Shown piece by piece: positions 10,764 through 46,769 of a stretch of 46,769 nucleotides of DNA. Location: positions 1-46,769 of the IMG/VR virus record IMGVR_UViG_3300048588_000791, one strand, 5' to 3'. The position numbers and the translations under genes are program-made. Under the pieces are notes generated by a model. The model was not told the origin of the DNA and ran no database searches. It saw only the letters and a program-made list of their open reading frames with translations. The first letter of the stretch is position 1, and every line of letters starts with the position of its first letter. Source of the stretch: a virus.

Positions 10764-11576
10764 TTAGGCTCCAATTTTAGTGAGATAGGAATCAGTAATT
10801 TCTTCGATGAAATAAAGCGTCTCGGCGACGGGCGTAGGGGTGAATGAATACTTCCAGAAGACCTTACCCTGAAAGAGATTGGTTGCCGTGTTTTGCTCGT
10901 CATCGGGCACGCAGTCGCCGCCCGCGATTGCACCTTTGCTCTTAAGATCATCAAGGTATGTCTTCACGCTATTTTGTACGGCCTTCAGGTAGTTGGCGGT
11001 GATACCTTTGGCCACTGCCCAGCGATGGCTCGAAAGGATGGCTTCCCGAATTGCGTCGGCGATCCTGACTTTTTGAATCTGATGGGTCTTGAGGTTGCCT
11101 GGTGCGCCGGCACCTCTCGCACCCCACATACGGAAGCCATCCTGCCTGACAATCGTCGAAACCTGCTTCGAGTTCAGGAGCTGGCCAAGCGACATCGCAT
11201 CGTCCAGCGCAAAGGATACCGGGTACTCAGTACCAAGGATCCCGTTGATTGGCTGGTTTGATGGACTTTCCCAAAAGTTGATCTTTGCCAGCACCCCGGC
11301 AGCATAAGGGCTGGCAGGAACTGCAATGGTCTTGCTGCCATGTGAAACCTTTACCCGTGGCCAGACGAGATAAATTCTCTCGCTGTTGTTGGTGGTCTGG
11401 AAAGCCAGTACTTCATCTTTCTTCCCTGGAACATCGAAGATTCCTATGGCACCGAGCTGCTTTGCAACGGTTGCCATTGTTGTGAAAAGCGCGTTGGCCG
11501 TGGCATCTCGTGGAGTGTCGGTATTGGAGTTTCCGCCAGGTTCAGTGGCGGGAGTTACGGTCGTTGTTTCAGCTAT
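10764..11576 (-). CDS. FI: Tail sheath FI, C-terminal part (separate cistron, ATA start)
   Basis: The segment matches the C-terminal two thirds of a P2-type contractile sheath: SERIYLVWPRVKVS, the RQDGFRMWGARGAG motif, and the ending YLTKIGA. The first canonical start (ATG 11477) would omit the conserved DATANALF helix. Upstream the frame is open to ATA 11576, which overlaps the TAG of the N-terminal part as ATAG and is preceded by GAGG six bases away. The 270-aa product would begin (M)AETTTVTPATEP, a flexible linker. So the sheath appears split into two translated pieces, or the gene is broken by mutation. Confidence 0.75.
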   Translation of the reverse strand: MAETTTVTPATEPGGNSNTDTPRDATANALFTTMATVAKQLGAIGIFDVPGKKDEVLAFQTTNNSERIYLVWPRVKVSHGSKTIAVPASPYAAGVLAKINFWESPSNQPINGILGTEYPVSFALDDAMSLGQLLNSKQVSTIVRQDGFRMWGARGAGAPGNLKTHQIQKVRIADAIREAILSSHRWAVAKGITANYLKAVQNSVKTYLDDLKSKGAIAGGDCVPDDEQNTATNLFQGKVFWKYSFTPTPVAETLYFIEEITDSYLTKIGA

Positions 11577-12127
11577 TCTTCACCTCGATTTCTTGAAGTT
11601 ATCGTTCGCGCTCTTGAGGCGCTTGGTTGCGTGTTTCCCGCCATGGGGCGGTCATCCACCGGGTTTGCAGGGTCCGTTGGGACCACCGGGTTTGCCGGGT
11701 TCGCTGGATCCGTCGGACCAGCAGGGTTAACTGGCGTTGCACTCGTTTCGGTGCCCAGCTGGGTTGCTATGAAGACCTTGGGTTTGTACCCAGTGACGCT
11801 TTCAGCATCCAGCAGCGCATTGACAGCACTTTGCATGTCGCTTTCGCTGTTGCTTTTTGCTTTGACGAGGACAATGACATCTTCCGTCTGGTCATGGACA
11901 CCGAGCACGGCGAAATGCAGTGAACCCGGTTCTTTGCCTGTTGGTGGCTTCAGTGCTTCGAGTGCTTCCTTCTTTTTGAAAAAAGCCTTGGGCACTTCGT
12001 CCTGAAGGGTTGTGATACCCTCTGCCGTGCCGACGATGCCGACGATTGACTGACTTGGGGATGTCACTGTACGTATCTCGCCCGTGCTTTCCTGAATAAC
12101 TATTCCATGGACATAAGCGTCAGCCGT
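11573..12127 (-). CDS. FI: Tail sheath FI, N-terminal part (ACG start)
   Basis: The encoded N-terminus (M)ADAYVHGIVIQEST followed by SPSQSIVGIVGTAEG matches the P2 FI pattern (MAxDYHHGVxVVE ... IVGxV). The conserved part includes TGYKPKVFIATQLGT. A Pro-rich linker (PVNPAGPTDPANPANP) follows, then a poorly coding tail that ends at TAG. The first canonical start is GTG at 12067, which would lose the conserved N-terminus. The open frame instead begins at ACG 12127, six bases after GAGG, overlapping the end of gpI. In the last 20 codons the other minus-strand frame (reading GGKHATKRLKSANDNFKKSR) has better codon use, suggesting a frameshift near 11635. It too stops just before the C-part start. 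Confidence 0.75.
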   Translation of the reverse strand, partial: TADAYVHGIVIQESTGEIRTVTSPSQSIVGIVGTAEGITTLQDEVPKAFFKKKEALEALKPPTGKEPGSLHFAVLGVHDQTEDVIVLVKAKSNSESDMQSAVNALLDAESVTGYKPKVFIATQLGTETSATPVNPAGPTDPANPANPVVPTDPANPVDDRPMAGNTQPSASRARTITSRNRGEE

Positions 12128-22894: not shown

Positions 22895-23453
22895 AAAGTC
22901 CTTTCCTGAAATTTTCCTAAAATTGGTGAGAGCAAAAGCCTTGCAGGCCAGGGCCCAGGCGGAAATTTTATTTTACTTTAGGCCATGCAATTTTGATCTA
23001 TAAAAAGAGGGCGGTTGATCGTCAACCACAGAAGCCGAGGGGTGCCGGAAGGACCCAAAAGCTTCAAAATCATGATGTGTAAGCTCTCCAAGGCACTACC
23101 ACCCCTAAACATAGACTGGGCGCACTGTTTGCGATGTCATGATTTTGTGAATATTGATGGAATGGAATTGTGGAGGATGTAAGAAATGAAAGAGCTGTAT
23201 TGTAAGGCTTCGTGGGGATAGGCTTCCTGTATCTGTTGGTCCTCTAAGTATTAATCAGCAACTTGTTCAATACCGTCCACTGCATATTGGAGCAGATTTC
23301 GTGCATGTTAGCAAGAATTTTTCTTTGTCTATCAAATGAAAATTTAGATGCCGGCAATTGAACACTGTTTGATTTGCAGAGGCCATTTGTGACAATCATC
23401 TGTTTGAACCAATCGAGGCTCCTAGGCACAGTTAAATTTAACCTGGATGAAGA
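22895..23453. other. 559-base region without a clear gene; possible cos/promoter region
   Basis: The gap separates the leftward terminase operon from a rightward cargo gene. In lambda-type phages cos lies just upstream of the small terminase gene, so a packaging site is expected here, but no known cos motif is recognised. An 11-bp inverted repeat (CAAAATCATGA at 23065-23075, TCATGATTTTG at 23137-23147) flanks a 61-base loop. A 10-codon ORF at 23186-23221 has GGAGG before its ATG and may be chance. Otherwise nothing is seen. Confidence 0.4.
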
Positions 23454-28454: not shown

Positions 28455-29171
28455 TCATTCAAACCCATCCATGACAATGTACCCATCAAGATCTTCGCTG
28501 GGATATCTGACCTGGACGTCTTTGAGATCCCATTTGAAGTGGGCCGGAATATCCTGGCTGGAACAAACGATGATATCCTCGTCGCCGAATTTGTTCGGGC
28601 TGTCACTAACCTTCTGGTTGCCGACCTTCCGTACGTCCCATTTCTTGAACTTGTAGAACTGCCTGATCAAAAGCAGGCAGACCTCACCAGCGGGAACCTG
28701 AACCTTCGATGGCTCCATCATCGTCGCATTCGGCTCAATCCAACTCGGGCTCAGAACGGCAACACGGTCGTTGAAAAACTCACTCTCATGGTCAACATCC
28801 ATGCGGTTGATTGCGAGACGCACGCATCGTTCAAACTCAGAATGGTCTTTTGCTTCTTCAGGCGTCGCTATTTCGACCAGTGAAAGCTTGCCCTTCTTTG
28901 GCCCGCTAATCTTGACCGCTGCTTTTGGTTTTCCTGGAAGTCTTTGGTTTGAGCCATCCACAAAGCAATGATCGAACCGGGTCTTGTCACTGAATAGCGC
29001 TGATCGAGAGTTTTTGAGCAGCACGCTCAGGGATTGAAGCCGCACCTCTCGCTCAGCTTGGTAATCCTCATACGAGAATGGTTTTCCGGATTGTGACGTG
29101 ACGCATGAAACGAGAAGTGCGATTGATCCGAGGCCCATCAGCCTGAGACTCAAAAATCTAGCGAAGCGCAT
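28455..29171 (-). CDS. Predicted lipoprotein, unknown function
   Basis: The 238-aa protein begins with a type II signal peptide (FLSLRLMGLGSIALLVSC, lipobox LVSC with the lipidated Cys at residue 23). The mature part has no recognised domain: AEREVRLQSLSVLLKNSRSA early, CFVDGSNQRLPGK, and a C-terminal DIIVCSSQDIPAHFKWDL. It is the first gene downstream of the leftward promoter at 29379-29408 and its conserved leader. Phage lipoproteins made in lysogens often block superinfection or alter the surface, and that is the simplest guess. Confidence 0.7.
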   Translation of the reverse strand: MRFARFLSLRLMGLGSIALLVSCVTSQSGKPFSYEDYQAEREVRLQSLSVLLKNSRSALFSDKTRFDHCFVDGSNQRLPGKPKAAVKISGPKKGKLSLVEIATPEEAKDHSEFERCVRLAINRMDVDHESEFFNDRVAVLSPSWIEPNATMMEPSKVQVPAGEVCLLLIRQFYKFKKWDVRKVGNQKVSDSPNKFGDEDIIVCSSQDIPAHFKWDLKDVQVRYPSEDLDGYIVMDGFE

Positions 29172-29295: not shown

Positions 29296-29368
29296 TTTTT
29301 AGCACGCACGCACCATCCCGGAGCAAGCACCAGGCGGGGTTGATCCCGTTCTCGCCCGGTATTCCCAA
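29296..29368 (-). ncRNA. Conserved 5' leader element, copy 1
   Basis: Read on the minus strand, the leader starts about 12 bases after the -10 box of the leftward promoter. It contains, in order, GGGAATACCG, GAGAACGGG, a small hairpin CGGG-AUCAA-CCCG, GGTGC..GC.CCGGG and GGTGCGTGCGTGCTAAAAA. The same elements in the same order occur at 31779-31857 after another promoter with the same operator. Hairpin sequences differ while keeping pairing (here CGGG/CCCG, there GCG/CGC). About 120 bases separate it from the lipoprotein start, so it is not just a ribosome site. Confidence 0.6.
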
Positions 29369-29378
29369 GCACATCTCT

Positions 29379-29408
29379 ATAATAACGCGACGCGTCGCGT
29401 TTTGTCAA
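29379..29408 (-). promoter_or_regulatory. Leftward sigma70 promoter with in-spacer operator
   Basis: On the minus strand TTGACA (29408-29403) and TATTAT (29384-29379) are separated by 18 bases. Nearly the whole spacer is the palindrome AACGCGACGCGTCGCGTT (29384-29401). A repressor bound there would block RNA polymerase. It reads towards the lipoprotein and the accessory cluster, and beyond it lie the late genes. Confidence 0.7.
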
Positions 29409-29441
29409 AGAGTTTAGTTTATGCGGAGATAAATAAAGATT

Positions 29442-29470
29442 TTGATAAACGCGACGCGTCGCGTTATAAA
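29442..29470 (+). promoter_or_regulatory. Rightward sigma70 promoter with in-spacer operator
   Basis: TTGATA (29442-29447) and TATAAA (29465-29470) are 17 bases apart. The spacer is the same palindrome AACGCGACGCGTCGCGTT (29448-29465). It is divergent from the leftward promoter 40 bases away and drives the gene at 29519. Confidence 0.72.
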
Positions 29471-29477
29471 CAAATTA

Positions 29478-29507
29478 CCGGATAATCCGGTGCAAACTAT
29501 AAGTTAA
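29478..29507 (+). promoter_or_regulatory. Palindrome CCGGATAATCCGG and motif CAAACTATAAGTTAA
   Basis: Just downstream of the rightward promoter lie a 13-base inverted repeat (29478-29490) and a 15-base motif (29493-29507). The second motif recurs exactly at 31883-31897, again a short distance upstream of a start codon. Both would be in the mRNA leader and could be protein binding sites on DNA or RNA. Confidence 0.5.
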
Positions 29508-29518
29508 GGAAACGATTT

Positions 29519-30241
29519 ATGAGAAATGACGTGAACGCCAGAATTATGGACAAGATTCGGAAACTTCTTGCGCTGGCGGAAAGCGACAATGAGAACGAAG
29601 CCGCAATTGCAATGGAGCGAGCGAACGAGCTGCTCCTGCGCCACAATTTGTCAACCCAGGACCTTTCTGAGTCAACTGTATCGTCGCATGAGACCGAGGG
29701 CATTAAGACCGAGGCCGTCGAAACCAAGTGGATCATTGCAATCCTTCAGAAGCACTTTTTCGTGAAAATTATTGTCAAGCCTATCTACGGCGGGCGGTCA
29801 GACACTGGTAGAAGGATCTGGCACAAGAGGTATTGCTACATAGGCGAACCTCTCAATCTTGAAGTGGCACTGTATACCGAAGCCTTCTTAAGAAGGAGCT
29901 ACAAACGTCTGTGGCACGAATACAAAGCAGCGAATCAAGTCTCGGAGAAAAGCAGGCAGGCATACTATTCGGGCCTGACCAGGGGCATAATCGAGAAGCT
30001 CGAAGCCCAAAGGGGAAAGGTGCAAACCGAAACGGGGTTGGTATGGAAAGGCTCCGCCGCGATTGACCAATTTGTCCGCGAAAACTTCGGTCCTCTTCAA
30101 AAGAGATCTTCCAATATACGCATTGCCAATGATGGAGCCGCAATCAGCGCAGGCAAGGAAGCGGGTAGAAGCCTTGAGTTATCCACTGCGCTCAAGAAAA
30201 GTCACCAGTCATCGGCGTCTGGCCGCTATCTGGGAGCTTGA
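29519..30241 (+). CDS. DUF2786-type protein
   Basis: The 240-aa protein starts with MDKIRKLLALAESDNENEAA, then AIAMERANELLLRHNL. This is the signature of DUF2786, a small helical domain common in phage early regions and often followed by a metallopeptidase-like part. Its middle has KRYCYIGEPLNLEVALYTEA. AAGGA lies before its ATG. It is the first gene of the rightward cluster under the promoter at 29442 and is probably expressed early. No precise role is known. Confidence 0.75.
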   Translation: MRNDVNARIMDKIRKLLALAESDNENEAAIAMERANELLLRHNLSTQDLSESTVSSHETEGIKTEAVETKWIIAILQKHFFVKIIVKPIYGGRSDTGRRIWHKRYCYIGEPLNLEVALYTEAFLRRSYKRLWHEYKAANQVSEKSRQAYYSGLTRGIIEKLEAQRGKVQTETGLVWKGSAAIDQFVRENFGPLQKRSSNIRIANDGAAISAGKEAGRSLELSTALKKSHQSSASGRYLGA

Positions 30242-30321
30242 CGAGTCTCTAGCCAGGGAGCTGCAAGCGGCAGCTTCCGGCCCTCCGCAAATCAACCATT
30301 TTCAAAATATGGGATAGCGAT

Positions 30322-30804
30322 ATGCAAAATATCAGACACGATATCATGAAAAGACTCGAATCTCTGGCTTGGAAAAGATCAAGCCCATACTGTCTTGACT
30401 GCAAGCATAGAACGATTCTGGCACCCGCGAATGTCAATAAGTGCGGCATGTGCCATTCCCAGAACGTGACGCGTGTTCTGCCCGGTGTTGGGGTCGGCCC
30501 CATTGAATGGATCATAAAGCAGTTTCTGCTCGAAAGCCCATTCGATGCCGACGCGATGTTTGATGAGCACCTCGATGGGACCAAGGAGACCGTCACCTTT
30601 GGCAACACGACCTGGACTCTGAGCAGCATGCTCAAGGAGGCATTTCCGACCGCGTATCACGGACTTCGATTCCAGTTCAAAAGCACCATGTTGAAGCGCG
30701 GATTGATCATGCGAGTTGATTCAGAGTTGTACTGGACGGACGACATTGATGATTGGCTCGACCGGCAACAAGAAGCAACACCCTCACGTAACAAATTTCA
30801 TTGA
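30322..30804 (+). CDS. Zinc-ribbon hypothetical protein
   Basis: The 160-aa product has an N-terminal zinc ribbon (YCLDCKHRT ... KCGMCHSQN). After it come an acidic helical region (WIIKQFLLESPFDADAMFDE), then TVTFGNTTWTLSSMLKEAFP and an ending LYWTDDIDDWLDRQQ. The basic segment LRFQFKSTMLKRGLIMRVDS could bind nucleic acid. The family is unknown. It lies second in the rightward cluster. Confidence 0.6.
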   Translation: MQNIRHDIMKRLESLAWKRSSPYCLDCKHRTILAPANVNKCGMCHSQNVTRVLPGVGVGPIEWIIKQFLLESPFDADAMFDEHLDGTKETVTFGNTTWTLSSMLKEAFPTAYHGLRFQFKSTMLKRGLIMRVDSELYWTDDIDDWLDRQQEATPSRNKFH

Positions 30805-30830
30805 ACAGGAACACCTCGGAGCACATACAG

Positions 30831-31079
30831 ATGAACCTGCAAGTTATTTCCAGATCTTTCCACCGTACTGACGATTTGCTGAAGGGTTTCACCTACGGAT
30901 TTTTCCTTGTCGAGTTGCAGAAAAGGAAGTTTCGCCTGGACGAAGCACGGGTAAGGGAAATCTTTGGTGAATACTTGCGGCGGCAGGTGATCGATGCCCG
31001 CCAGGCTTTCGATGATCACATTGACGAAATCATGGATTGCGTAAACCAGTCCAGAGCCGCAGGTAAACCGAAGTTGTGA
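30831..31079 (+). CDS. Small hypothetical protein, paralogue of the 31420 gene
   Basis: The 82-aa protein contains VREIFGEYLRRQVIDARQAF and then DDHIDEIMDCV. This aligns with VKKVFRECLERHLIDAHESL and ADNMSEILKEL of the gene at 31420, so the two are paralogues in one cluster. ATG 30831 has CGGAG 9 bases upstream; an in-frame TTG at 30801 is less likely. The function is unknown. Confidence 0.6.
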   Translation: MNLQVISRSFHRTDDLLKGFTYGFFLVELQKRKFRLDEARVREIFGEYLRRQVIDARQAFDDHIDEIMDCVNQSRAAGKPKL

Positions 31080-31114
31080 CCCGAATCCCGATCGAGCATC
31101 GAGGCTAAACTACC

Positions 31115-31132
31115 GCTCCCCTCCGGGGGAGC
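31115..31132 (+). terminator. Hairpin with UCCG tetraloop (weak terminator or attenuator)
   Basis: GCTCCCC-TCCG-GGGGAGC is followed by TTTAT. The stem is a perfect 7 base pairs but the T run is short. It lies between the 30831 and 31151 genes. A hairpin of the same design occurs on the other strand at 37978-37995. Confidence 0.5.
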
Positions 31133-31150
31133 TTTATAAAGGACAATTCC

Positions 31151-31423
31151 ATGGCAGCATATCATATCAAAGACTACATTAAGCTTATGAACGCGGTAAC
31201 AACGCTTAAAGACCCTGCGAAGTCCAAGCGCTCGAAGACCATGGCATCAAATTATATCGACAAGGTGATTGGGGACGCGTTCAGGAAGCATAGCGCCGGC
31301 CTTGTGGTCCCGGTAACCCGGATTCCGAAGGTCTATCAGGTTGGCCGTGAGGCAGTCATGGAGGGAAGGGACCTCAATGAGCACATGCAGCGTGCGATCA
31401 AGGAACATGGGGTGCAGCTATGA
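31151..31423 (+). CDS. 90-aa hypothetical protein
   Basis: The basic protein (MAAYHIKDYIKLMNAVTTLK, then DPAKSKRSKTMASNYI) continues with VPVTRIPKVYQVGREAVMEG. No family is recognised. It overlaps the following gene by 4 bases (ATGA), so the two are coupled. The basic N-terminus may bind nucleic acid. Confidence 0.6.
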   Translation: MAAYHIKDYIKLMNAVTTLKDPAKSKRSKTMASNYIDKVIGDAFRKHSAGLVVPVTRIPKVYQVGREAVMEGRDLNEHMQRAIKEHGVQL

Positions 31424-31665
31424 AGGTCAATCGAACCCGGCAGCATACCCATAGGTTCAACACGGCTGATGCGCTGCTTGATGAAATGCCATTTGATCAC
31501 TTGATTATCACGGTCCTGGCAAACGAAAAGGTGATCAATATTGCGACGGTGAAAAAGGTATTTCGAGAATGCCTGGAACGGCACCTGATTGATGCTCACG
31601 AAAGCCTTGCGGATAACATGAGTGAAATTCTCAAGGAACTGCACAGACAGCGAAGAATGAAGTGA
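31420..31665 (+). CDS. Small hypothetical protein, paralogue of the 30831 gene
   Basis: The 81-aa protein shares the motif V(R/K)xxFxExLxRxxIDAxxxxxD with the 30831 product. The two differ at their N-termini; this one is basic (MKVNRTRQHTHRFNTADALL). It is the last gene of the rightward cluster before the third operator-promoter. The function is unknown. Confidence 0.6.
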   Translation: MKVNRTRQHTHRFNTADALLDEMPFDHLIITVLANEKVINIATVKKVFRECLERHLIDAHESLADNMSEILKELHRQRRMK

Positions 31666-31707
31666 TTGATTACTGATTTCAGGGCCGGCAAGGCCAAGTC
31701 AGTCCGG

Positions 31708-31723
31708 GCCTCCGAAAGGAGGC
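31708..31723 (+). terminator. Hairpin GCCTCC-GAAA-GGAGGC after the rightward cluster
   Basis: A perfect 6-base-pair stem with a stable GAAA loop lies 43 bases after the 31420 gene stop. It is followed by TTGAGCAAGTTTTG. It may be a weak terminator ahead of the next promoter. Confidence 0.45.
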
Positions 31724-31738
31724 TTGAGCAAGTTTTGA

Positions 31739-31767
31739 TTGCAAAACGCGACGCGTCGCGTTATAAC
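31739..31767 (+). promoter_or_regulatory. Third promoter with the same in-spacer operator
   Basis: TTGCAA (31739-31744) and TATAAC (31762-31767) are spaced by 17 bases. The spacer again is AACGCGACGCGTCGCGTT (31745-31762), identical to the other two operators. It drives the winged-helix gene at 31935, so if that protein is the repressor it would regulate itself. Confidence 0.7.
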
Positions 31768-31778
31768 TATACTCGGGT

Positions 31779-31857
31779 CCGGAAATACCGAGGCTGAGAA
31801 CGGCGTCAGAGTCGCAAGGTGCAGGCACCGGGGTGGTGCGTGCGTGCTAAAAAAAAG
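31779..31857 (+). ncRNA. Conserved 5' leader element, copy 2
   Basis: Downstream of the third promoter the transcript contains CGGAAATACCG (possible 3-bp hairpin), GAGAACGGCGTCAGAG, GGTGCAGGCACCGGGG and GGTGCGTGCGTGCTAAAAA. The order and spacing agree with copy 1 at 29296-29368. The final 19-base block is identical. About 80 bases and the CAAACTATAAGTTAA motif follow before the start codon. Confidence 0.6.
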
Positions 31858-31934
31858 AAAGCGCAGCCAATGACCGCGCCCACAAACTATAAGTTAACAC
31901 CTGTTTATATCCAATTCCAAAGGGATAGGTCAAT

Positions 31935-32540
31935 ATGATAATCGGTAGCATGTCAGAGGAAAGCAATGGCGCAACGCGCTTTCCTGCCTGGTTTATGGAT
32001 CTGAAAAAGAGAAAAAGGAAGAAGCGGCACACAGCCGAAGAGTTGGCTGAAACGACAGGGATGTCCAAATCGGCTATCCTCCGGGGATTTGATGGACTCA
32101 TTGAAGCCGAGGTAGTCAGGGACGGACGCCAGTCGTCGTATGAGTATCTCGACGATGACCTGCAGTGGCTGGAGAATGAGGTAGCCGCAGGGCGCATTTA
32201 CCCCGTGCGCGTCGATCGGAAAAAGCTGGCCAAGTCCAAGGCTTTTCTGAAGAAAAAAAGTGAAGAGCTGAAGCAGGAGTGTGGACGAGCGCTGGATGCT
32301 AATAGGGTTTATAACCTGAAGTCTGATGAGAACTTCTTGAATGCCTATGAAGCAACCCAATCCGCAGCAGACGGCCTGAACAAAATGCTGGAAGAAATAG
32401 CGGACCTAAGCGACAAAGAACCAATATCAATTGTCGCTTCAGCTGGGTTGATCCTTACCCATCTATCCAAGAATTTGGAAGCGGTCAGAGAAAGATACAA
32501 CGAGTTGCGGAAAGGAGATAGAAATGCAGAACAGCCTTGA
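31935..32540 (+). CDS. Winged-helix protein, candidate phage regulator
   Basis: The 201-aa product has a basic N-terminal arm (MDLKKRKRKKRH). A clear helix-turn-helix follows (TAEELAETTGMSKSAILRGF, then DGLIEAEVVRDGRQSSYEYL) with a wing-like end, and then a long coiled-coil-like helical region (LKKKSEELKQECGRALDANR). It lies behind promoter 31739-31767, which carries the same operator as the two other hub promoters. It is therefore the best visible candidate for the hub regulator, but no direct evidence links it to the operator. It overlaps the following gene by 17 bases. Confidence 0.65.
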   Translation: MIIGSMSEESNGATRFPAWFMDLKKRKRKKRHTAEELAETTGMSKSAILRGFDGLIEAEVVRDGRQSSYEYLDDDLQWLENEVAAGRIYPVRVDRKKLAKSKAFLKKKSEELKQECGRALDANRVYNLKSDENFLNAYEATQSAADGLNKMLEEIADLSDKEPISIVASAGLILTHLSKNLEAVRERYNELRKGDRNAEQP

Positions 32541-32820: not shown

Positions 32821-32852
32821 ATCAGCCATCGAAGTGATGGCTGATCTTTTTT
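32821..32852 (+). terminator. Rho-independent terminator
   Basis: ATCAGCCATC-GAAGT-GATGGCTGAT forms a perfect 10-base-pair stem, followed by C and TTTTTT. It lies just downstream of the EF-Tu-domain-II-like gene and ends the rightward transcript, where it meets the leftward peptidase gene. Confidence 0.92.
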
Positions 32853-45437: not shown

Positions 45438-46769
45438 TCACCCTCCTATCAGCTTGTGCACGCGTTGGGCTCCAAACATGTGCAAAAGGTTAGCGTATAG
45501 CTGATCGTCACTGAGTTTTGCCCAACCGCGCTGAAAGCTGGCCTGGCACTTGAGGCCTGCGGTCAGGAGCAAAGCGGCCGTATCGAGTTCGATTCGTCTT
45601 TCTGATCGCGGTGCTGGTGTGTTTCCGCCGAATGTGTGTACTGCAGTGCTCGGTGATCGTGGTGCTGAATTTTTTTCGCTCGCTGTGTCCAAGTCATTGC
45701 CCTGCGCTCGCGCTGTCGCAGGTTGGTCGCTCACTGTGTCTGCAGCGACGCTGGTCGTTGTACCTGTCGGGCGTATTATCGCCAGCGGGACATCGATCAA
45801 GTTCGCGTGCGTGATTTGGACCTGGGAGCGATGGGGTGTGGTTTGTAGCTCGTGGGTCGAGCTCTTCTCGGTCGTGCAGGTCTCCTGCGGCTCTGGGGTG
45901 GAGGTCCGGCTTGTCACGTCGGCTTCCTCACGCCAGGGTTCAAGAGATTCAATATGGCCGGGTTCATGTGGCGAGTAATCCGGATTTTCCGCCTCGACGG
46001 ACGCACTGGGTTCGGAACTCGGCTTCTGGCTTTCGAGAAACGGCGCCTGAGCTACTTCACTCATTTTAGAGCACTCACCCTGCTCAATGAGTTCAGCCTC
46101 GATCAGTAGCGGAGCCTGGGCCTCTGGCAACGATTTTTGGGTTTCTCCTTCAAGAGCGGATTTCGCTTCTTCGGGATCGAAATAGCCATCTCCTAGAACA
46201 GTGGACCAGCTTCTCCCTTCCCGGAAGGCTTTGACGAAGTCCTGGATCAGGTACGGGTTGTAGGGGAAGGGTCTCCCATAGGCGTAGTAGGCTTTCTTCA
46301 CAAAGCTGGCGAATTCCATGGCAGCAATCTGGCCCATCTCAATTGCGATCTGTTCCACGGCTCCGTTCCACAAAGCCCGATCGAATCGGTAGTCGCGCTC
46401 TTTCCAGGCGATCTCTGCCACCTTTGCGATGTTGATGAGCCTTGGATGAAAAGTTGAATCAACTGGCGCCCACCGCTCCGCGCGCACGCGATTACAATCG
46501 GAACCCTTACGATCGGTATTCTTATTATTGGTTTTATTTATATAGGTATTCTTAGCAAAAACTGAATCCTCTGTATCCCGCTCTGGGCATGAGATTGACA
46601 ACGATTTTTCGATGACTTGATACGACTCCTGCCGCACCTGGGACGACTCCTGCCGCACCTGGGACGACTCCTGCCGCACCTGGGACGACTCCTGCCGCAC
46701 CTGGGACGACTCCTGCCGCACCTGGGACGACTCCTGCCGCACCTGGGACGACTCCTGCCGCACCTGGGA
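45438..46769 (-). CDS. Replication/primosome-type protein with N-terminal repeats (5' end outside window)
   Basis: The visible part has at least 7 copies of the heptad VRQESSQ at the N-terminus. A low-complexity part follows, then a folded domain: WAPVDSTFHPRLINIAKVAE, RALWNGAVEQIAIEMGQIAA, and FPYNPYLIQDFVKAFREGRS. A long Ser/Thr/Glu-rich disordered stretch and a C-terminal SDDQLYANLLHMFGAQRVHK follow. The FDRALWNGAVE...YLIQDFV pattern is like the DnaT/primosomal-type domain of phage replication proteins, but I am not certain. An in-frame ATG lies at 46763, yet the frame and repeats run to the window edge. Confidence 0.5.
   Translation of the reverse strand, partial: SQVRQESSQVRQESSQVRQESSQVRQESSQVRQESSQVRQESSQVRQESYQVIEKSLSISCPERDTEDSVFAKNTYINKTNNKNTDRKGSDCNRVRAERWAPVDSTFHPRLINIAKVAEIAWKERDYRFDRALWNGAVEQIAIEMGQIAAMEFASFVKKAYYAYGRPFPYNPYLIQDFVKAFREGRSWSTVLGDGYFDPEEAKSALEGETQKSLPEAQAPLLIEAELIEQGECSKMSEVAQAPFLESQKPSSEPSASVEAENPDYSPHEPGHIESLEPWREEADVTSRTSTPEPQETCTTEKSSTHELQTTPHRSQVQITHANLIDVPLAIIRPTGTTTSVAADTVSDQPATARAQGNDLDTASEKNSAPRSPSTAVHTFGGNTPAPRSERRIELDTAALLLTAGLKCQASFQRGWAKLSDDQLYANLLHMFGAQRVHKLIGG
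46621..46767. repeat. 21-bp tandem repeat, at least 7 copies, in coding frame
   Basis: The unit GACGACTCCTGCCGCACCTGG is repeated without mismatch from 46642 to 46767, with one more copy (TAC variant) at 46621-46641. It is read in frame as the heptad VRQESSQ on the minus strand. It continues to the window edge, so the copy number is unknown. The unit is a multiple of 3, so copy number changes keep the frame. Iterated sequences inside phage replication genes can be origins (lambda O iterons), which is possible here. Confidence 0.9.

Follow-up and report, generated by a model that had tools for sequence, protein, structure and literature searches.

Which function belongs to a structured RNA that a phage places, in nearly the same sequence, at the start of two early transcripts running in opposite directions? 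The question is raised by the virus record IMGVR_UViG_3300048588_000791, whose whole length of 46,769 bases was analysed and is called the window here, and in which a promoter followed by a short leader occurs in two inverted copies. To our knowledge, RNA acting after initiation has been looked for in few early leaders of non-lambdoid phages. A preliminary description of this DNA had compared the two leaders with the put sites of phage HK022 or with nut sites, naming a riboswitch-like or protein-binding leader as the alternative. Our sequence comparisons point to a promoter-leader pair with a conserved 5' hairpin that is real, recurrent and apparently repressor-controlled. As a tentative explanation, held with somewhat less than even confidence, we propose that inverted promoter-leader modules flank a repressor-controlled early accessory block in a temperate phage, and that their RNA would act locally after initiation and not as a processive antiterminator.

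The leaders and their conserved ends are located as follows.

29296-29371, minus strand: leader copy 1, behind the leftward promoter PL, with hairpins I to III and the identical 3' block (repeat comparison, hairpin drawing).
31776-31853, plus strand: leader copy 2, behind the rightward promoter P3 (repeat comparison, hairpin drawing).
29296-29315, minus strand: identical 20-nt block TGGTGCGTGCGTGCTAAAAA in copy 1 (copy alignment).
31834-31853, plus strand: identical 20-nt block TGGTGCGTGCGTGCTAAAAA in copy 2 (copy alignment).

The inverted copies lie where they had been described: 29296-29353 (minus) and 31796-31853 (plus) align over 58 nt without a gap at 79% identity, and with the promoters included (29296-29404 versus 31853-31742) identity is 77.7% over 112 columns when the whole window is compared with itself by BLAST (E value 4e-15). 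The identical end block measures 20 nt, one more than previously seen, and 17 nt of it had no further occurrence in the record with up to two mismatches allowed. Matching columns are clumped into a run of 23 at the operator and a run of 20 at the leader end, a clumping that random placement would give with p=1.9e-4. The 12 substitutions in the 58-nt block are spread about evenly over the codon positions (4, 5 and 3), so that the block does not look coding, and a leader that serves as coding sequence was ruled out on this ground.

A feature missed by the preliminary description is a perfect 18-bp palindrome, AACGCGACGCGTCGCGTT, which occupies the spacer between the −35 and −10 motifs in all three sigma-70-like promoters of the region.

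29379-29408, minus strand: leftward promoter PL (TTGACA, 18 nt, TATTAT), matching 11 of 12 consensus positions and ranking first in a scan of 22-35 kb, with the operator palindrome in its spacer.
29442-29470, plus strand: rightward promoter P2 (TTGATA, 17 nt, TATAAA), which drives 29519-31665 and has no leader copy.
31739-31767, plus strand: rightward promoter P3 (TTGCAA, 17 nt, TATAAC).
29384-29401, no strand assigned: operator copy 1, inside PL, one of three identical copies of the palindrome in the record.
29448-29465, no strand assigned: operator copy 2, inside P2, identical.
31745-31762, no strand assigned: operator copy 3, inside P3, identical.

The identity of the palindrome in the three spacers suggests that a single repressor may act on PL, P2 and P3. 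A leader copy follows two of these three operator-promoters, PL and P3, and its absence behind P2 agrees with what had been reported. No match to the window operator was found in viral_contigs, and genome_contigs gave seven, six of them in planctomycete metagenome-assembled genomes, where the operator is embedded in a longer palindrome and the flanks are not promoter-like. In those planctomycete loci (L088-L093) the longer palindrome around AACGCGACGCGTCGCGTT has CCCA and TGGG, or sequences close to these, at its flanks and occurs at scattered places.

Related phages carry the same arrangement under a different operator. With the large terminase as query, eight IMG/VR loci were found at 77-93% identity; a search with the terminase alignment added no relatives from IMG/VR and found none in genome_contigs. 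With the DUF2786 and helix-turn-helix (HTH) proteins of the window as queries no relative was confirmed in viral_contigs, and the HTH protein encoded from 31935 had no tblastn match in phages at E 0.01. In the nearest relative, G001, different sequence replaces the early block. G003 and its near duplicate G008 share the window's architecture with another palindromic operator, AAGTTAACGCGTTAACTT, and a 290-bp inverted duplicate module; a third carrier, L046, came from a pattern search. Exactly two inverted operator-promoters, each with a hairpin of loop RAAUA at the 5' end of its RNA, flank a block with an ArdA-type anti-restriction gene in these relatives. In G003 the proteins encoded between the modules include an ArdA antirestriction protein (PF07275, E=2e-7) and one with DUF6908. 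The HTH gene adjoining one relative module is a homologue of the gene behind P3 (31%, E=1e-8, against L022:9121-9411), detected by tblastn in G003, G008 and L046 and syntenic, and a methyltransferase lying past the modules shows 68% identity. As read from gene order, the window and G003 carry the gene block together with the HTH gene in opposite orientations relative to these neighbours. Repeats in G001 and G002 were considered as further leaders and rejected, having neither operator nor hairpin; those of G001 lie among coding frames.

Two smaller features of the relatives deserve mention. At L022:11447-11458 and L046:5498-5509 the outward leaders carry a three-codon frame, AUG AGC UAC/CAC UAA, behind a GGAGG box; its start, stop and place are conserved, and it resembles a phage minigene or leader peptide. 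At L022:9531-9819 and 11386-11675, and likewise in L046, operator-promoters stand face to face about 290 bp apart, so placed that the short RNA with the terminator-like end lies antisense to the opposing leader, and antisense control by such promoters is possible there.

What the two operator groups have in common is the first hairpin of the leader, for which covariation with the relatives was the evidence.

29353-29371, minus strand: hairpin I of the PL leader, UGCUUGG-GAAUA-CCGGGCG.
31776-31794, plus strand: hairpin I of the P3 leader, GGUCCGG-AAAUA-CCGAGGC, with 5 of 7 pairs.

A scan of ten records and loci for a palindrome followed by an RAAUA-loop hairpin found exactly two inverted sites each in the window, G003, G008 and L046; the remaining records gave no site. 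At all sites the loop begins 28-30 nt from the operator centre; the probability of a shared 9-mer in this register is about 7.5e-4, a post hoc value since the loop match was noticed before testing. Across both groups 94% of the hairpin I cells are paired, versus 76% in shuffled alignments (1 of 500), with changes on both sides in five of the seven pairs, and controls slid along the alignment gave 10-53%. Further copies and covariation in related phages, on which the preliminary description had staked its leaders, are present in the form of these RAAUA modules and of hairpin I. Its view of two homologous structured leaders, one behind a leftward and one behind a rightward early promoter, is supported likewise, and related phages show the arrangement again.

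Within the window by itself, the covariation is weak. An in-register drawing of three hairpins is possible for both copies, the remaining two being these.

29335-29348, minus strand: hairpin II of the PL leader, CGGG-AUCAAC-CCCG (in-register drawing).
31801-31814, plus strand: hairpin II of the P3 leader, CGGC-GUCAGA-GUCG (in-register drawing).
29306-29328, minus strand: hairpin III of the PL leader, seven pairs and two U.U mismatches (in-register drawing).
31821-31843, plus strand: hairpin III of the P3 leader, eight pairs and one G.G mismatch (in-register drawing, fold).

Hairpin II keeps its four pairs through one double change and one change from G-C to G-U. In hairpin III the 3' strand belongs to the invariant block, and all changes are confined to the 5' strand, leaving U.U in place of two A-U pairs. 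The two-sequence consensus fold was no better than column shuffles (z −1.1, 43 of 300), and the single-strand folds did not stand out from dinucleotide shuffles (z +0.7 to −1.8). The earlier statement that the hairpins change sequence but keep pairing therefore holds for hairpin II, fails for hairpin III and was worded too strongly. Database searches added little: at the curated threshold Rfam reported nothing in the window except a tRNA, weak sub-threshold matches at 29377-29475 overlap two of the operator palindromes, the exact leader-end pattern was absent from viral_contigs, and BLAST of the window leader and the G003 module against phages and plasmids gave no match.

In the mechanism that we propose, each module consists of a sigma-70-type promoter, an 18-bp palindromic operator in its spacer and, directly after these, a short non-coding RNA, which opens with a 5'-terminal hairpin of loop RAAUA. 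This RNA would act locally after initiation, deciding the fate of its own transcript through stability, translation or early termination, with recognition of hairpin I as the probable route; processive antitermination by the leader is most likely not involved. Transcription, repression by one phage protein and local leader action are what we infer, and the element may be the protein-binding or regulatory leader that the preliminary description gave as its alternative.

Several observations weigh against this proposal. The window copies have no U-run, and their terminated form was not seen. Outside hairpin I, similarity between the leaders of the two groups is marginal: the likeness of the P3 leader to the relatives' RNA is reached by 1-28 per 1000 shuffles and that of the PL leader by 20-331 per 1000, and in profile searches between the leaders of the two groups neither recovered the other. 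Orientation differs as well: relative to the gene block, the modules face outward in the window and inward in the relatives. There are, moreover, two operator groups in all, G003 and G008 being near duplicates. As for which promoters correspond, position and gene order match the window leaders to the outward promoters 'B' of G003 and L046, whereas register and hairpin I match them to the inward promoters 'A', a comparison that rests on two operator groups. The B leaders, of about 190 nt, have a core that folds better than column shuffles (z −3.6) and weakly match the 3' part of the P3 leader. The relatives' leader profile, run on the window, gave its best relevant match at 31827-31859 (plus; E=7.6, second in the list), which is suggestive only.

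Downstream of hairpin I the operator groups differ, and it is here that a second explanation finds its evidence. The module might make a short repressor-controlled small RNA, present as two gene copies and fused in the window to a downstream gene as its leader. In G003 and L046 the RAAUA promoters run, in all four copies (one with a mismatch), into a terminator-like GGGCGGG-GGAA-UCCGUUC hairpin and T-run at about +90; column shuffles of this RNA fold less well than the RNA itself (z −3.1), and one promoter of the pair is directed antisense to genes. The window leaders, lacking such a terminator on the sense strand, end in a GUGC block and then an A-run, and no complementary target occurs elsewhere in the record. 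The long A-run after copy 2 is accounted for by a site on the opposite strand.

31850-31881, minus strand: intrinsic-terminator-like site with a 10-bp stem and T-run (consensus scan).

We regard the small RNA as an unlikely possibility. A bolder form of our proposal seems to us comparably doubtful: that the inverted-pair 5' RAAUA hairpin module, with repressor-controlled promoters and placed around anti-defence genes, would be a new class of phage regulatory RNA, acting directly on early transcripts as a small RNA or via RNA polymerase, in phages of a lineage not related to those with put.

Plain duplication of a promoter segment, with selection on operator and promoter only and the likeness of the leaders a functionless remnant, also appears unlikely to us. 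It would agree with the lack of a fold signal in the window copies themselves and with a hairpin III not kept by compensatory change. The 20-nt block at the far end is nevertheless fully conserved while the middle has diverged (p about 2e-4), and hairpin I covaries between phage groups.

At the left end of the window lie a host elongation factor gene (PHROGs match 'translation elongation factor'), which we read as EF-G from that match, and tRNA-Val at 1284-1360; an integrase gene follows them, so that an integrated prophage is the most likely nature of the window. Leftward genes predominate. Those between 46 and 33 kb encode recombination functions, SSB, methyltransferase and endolysin, and those between 23 and 5 kb encode terminase, portal, capsid and tail proteins; a rightward block occupies 29.5-32.8 kb.

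28455-29171, minus strand: first gene behind leader copy 1, function not assigned, with a lipoprotein-like N terminus as read from the sequence.
29519-30241, plus strand: first gene of the P2 block, a DUF2786/DUF7168 protein, phrog_421 (family matches).
31935-32540, plus strand: gene behind leader copy 2, a winged-HTH-like protein (homologue of the relatives' protein in matching position, weak HTH matches), carrying a KKRKRKKR stretch.
32821-32845, plus strand: terminator-like site closing the P3 operon, with an 11-bp stem and CTTTTTT (consensus scan).

Some further features of the window are recorded here. Small proteins of the P2 block encoded at 30834-31079 and 31420-31665 are paralogues (25% over 69 amino acids, E=7e-9). 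A 15-nt repeat, CAAACTATAAGTTAA, is identical at 29493-29507 and 31883-31897, ahead of the first gene that follows P2 and of the first that follows P3; a small hairpin precedes each copy of the repeat, and its minus strand reads TATAGT, which is −10-like. Upstream of terS, a non-coding block at 22977-23062 is kept in all eight aligned sequences (the window and seven terminase relatives), with GGGTCCT and TGACGA-CAAC invariant and a hairpin GGTTGACGATCAACC, and is probably the cos region. The right end of the record (46622-46769) is a tandem repeat with an 85-nt exact overlap, encodes RQESSQV repeats and is probably an assembly break.

The put RNA suppresses pausing and termination without a phage protein. 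In HK022 it binds the zinc-binding domain of the RNA polymerase beta' subunit (PMC9378689). A put-like, RNA-only processive antiterminator would have the nascent leader bind RNA polymerase so that terminators are passed, and the arrangement agrees with this, one copy standing behind the leftward and one behind the rightward early promoter, each with two or more stems and no obvious partner protein. A GAACGG box precedes the stem as in put, a resemblance only, given that the put model and alignment tests failed. For these tests HK022 putL was located through the residue numbering of PMC9378689 (25 of 25 positions), and ten put sequences were gathered, annotated ones of HK639 and O276 among them; the put records compared were those of HK022, HK75, O276 and HK639. 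The covariance model built from them (R1) scores known put sites at 66-98 bits, whereas with filters off it reported nothing at either window leader, the best nearby chance match reaching 9.1 bits; local alignment of the leaders to put was not above shuffles. Read-through at the rightward copy has no target, since that leader is followed by two genes, the strong terminator-like site at 32821-32845 and then 14 kb in which the substantial genes lie on the opposite strand. Of the two leaders in the relatives, one runs antisense to the gene block and finishes in a terminator-like hairpin, and an antiterminator would therefore be purposeless both at P3 and in the relatives. Terminator-like sites are consensus matches whose count in the window (15) is about that of shuffles (13.9), so that a single site, unless long-stemmed, counts for little. 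The put reading is accordingly not supported; because the leftward copy, taken by itself, could still be of use to the late operon, we keep this reading as improbable. Least probable of all is a nut-type site, in which hairpin I would be a boxB-like pentaloop bound by an Arg/Lys-rich phage protein: its purine-rich 5-nt loop on a 6-7 bp stem and the basic stretch of the HTH protein behind P3 would suit it, but the best boxA (CGCTCTTTA-like) match in both transcripts is 6 of 9, the shuffled-sequence mean being 6.07, the basic stretch is missing from the relatives' homologue, and P3 poses the same problem of direction as for put.

The modules provide a clear negative for reading every paired early leader as a put site. 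A leader tied to a shared operator and a variable block, which in the relatives holds an anti-restriction gene, may also show how anti-defence genes are timed on entry.

Set beside known systems, the window resembles put phages in that a pair of related structured RNAs, each about 60-75 nt long, follows the two early promoters of a temperate phage. The put profile has two stems and invariant GAACGGC.CG, GTCGG, GGCGG, AGG and CAAT, whereas the window leaders lack GTCGG, GGCGG, AGG and CAAT and the rightward copy has nothing to read through to. With nut sites they share the pairing of leaders behind early promoters and a pentaloop hairpin, but they have no boxA and no recognisable N protein (no match to the N family among the 30 window proteins scanned against PHROGs), and their hairpin stands at the extreme 5' end of the transcript. 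Like boxB, the RAAUA hairpin has a purine-rich pentaloop, here with covariation, but its stem and place are unlike those of boxB. As in the lambdoid OL/OR system, several early promoters share one repressor site; the window differs in having one perfect palindrome per −35/−10 spacer, identical in all three, instead of a multi-site operator, and in adding an RNA leader to two of the three promoters.

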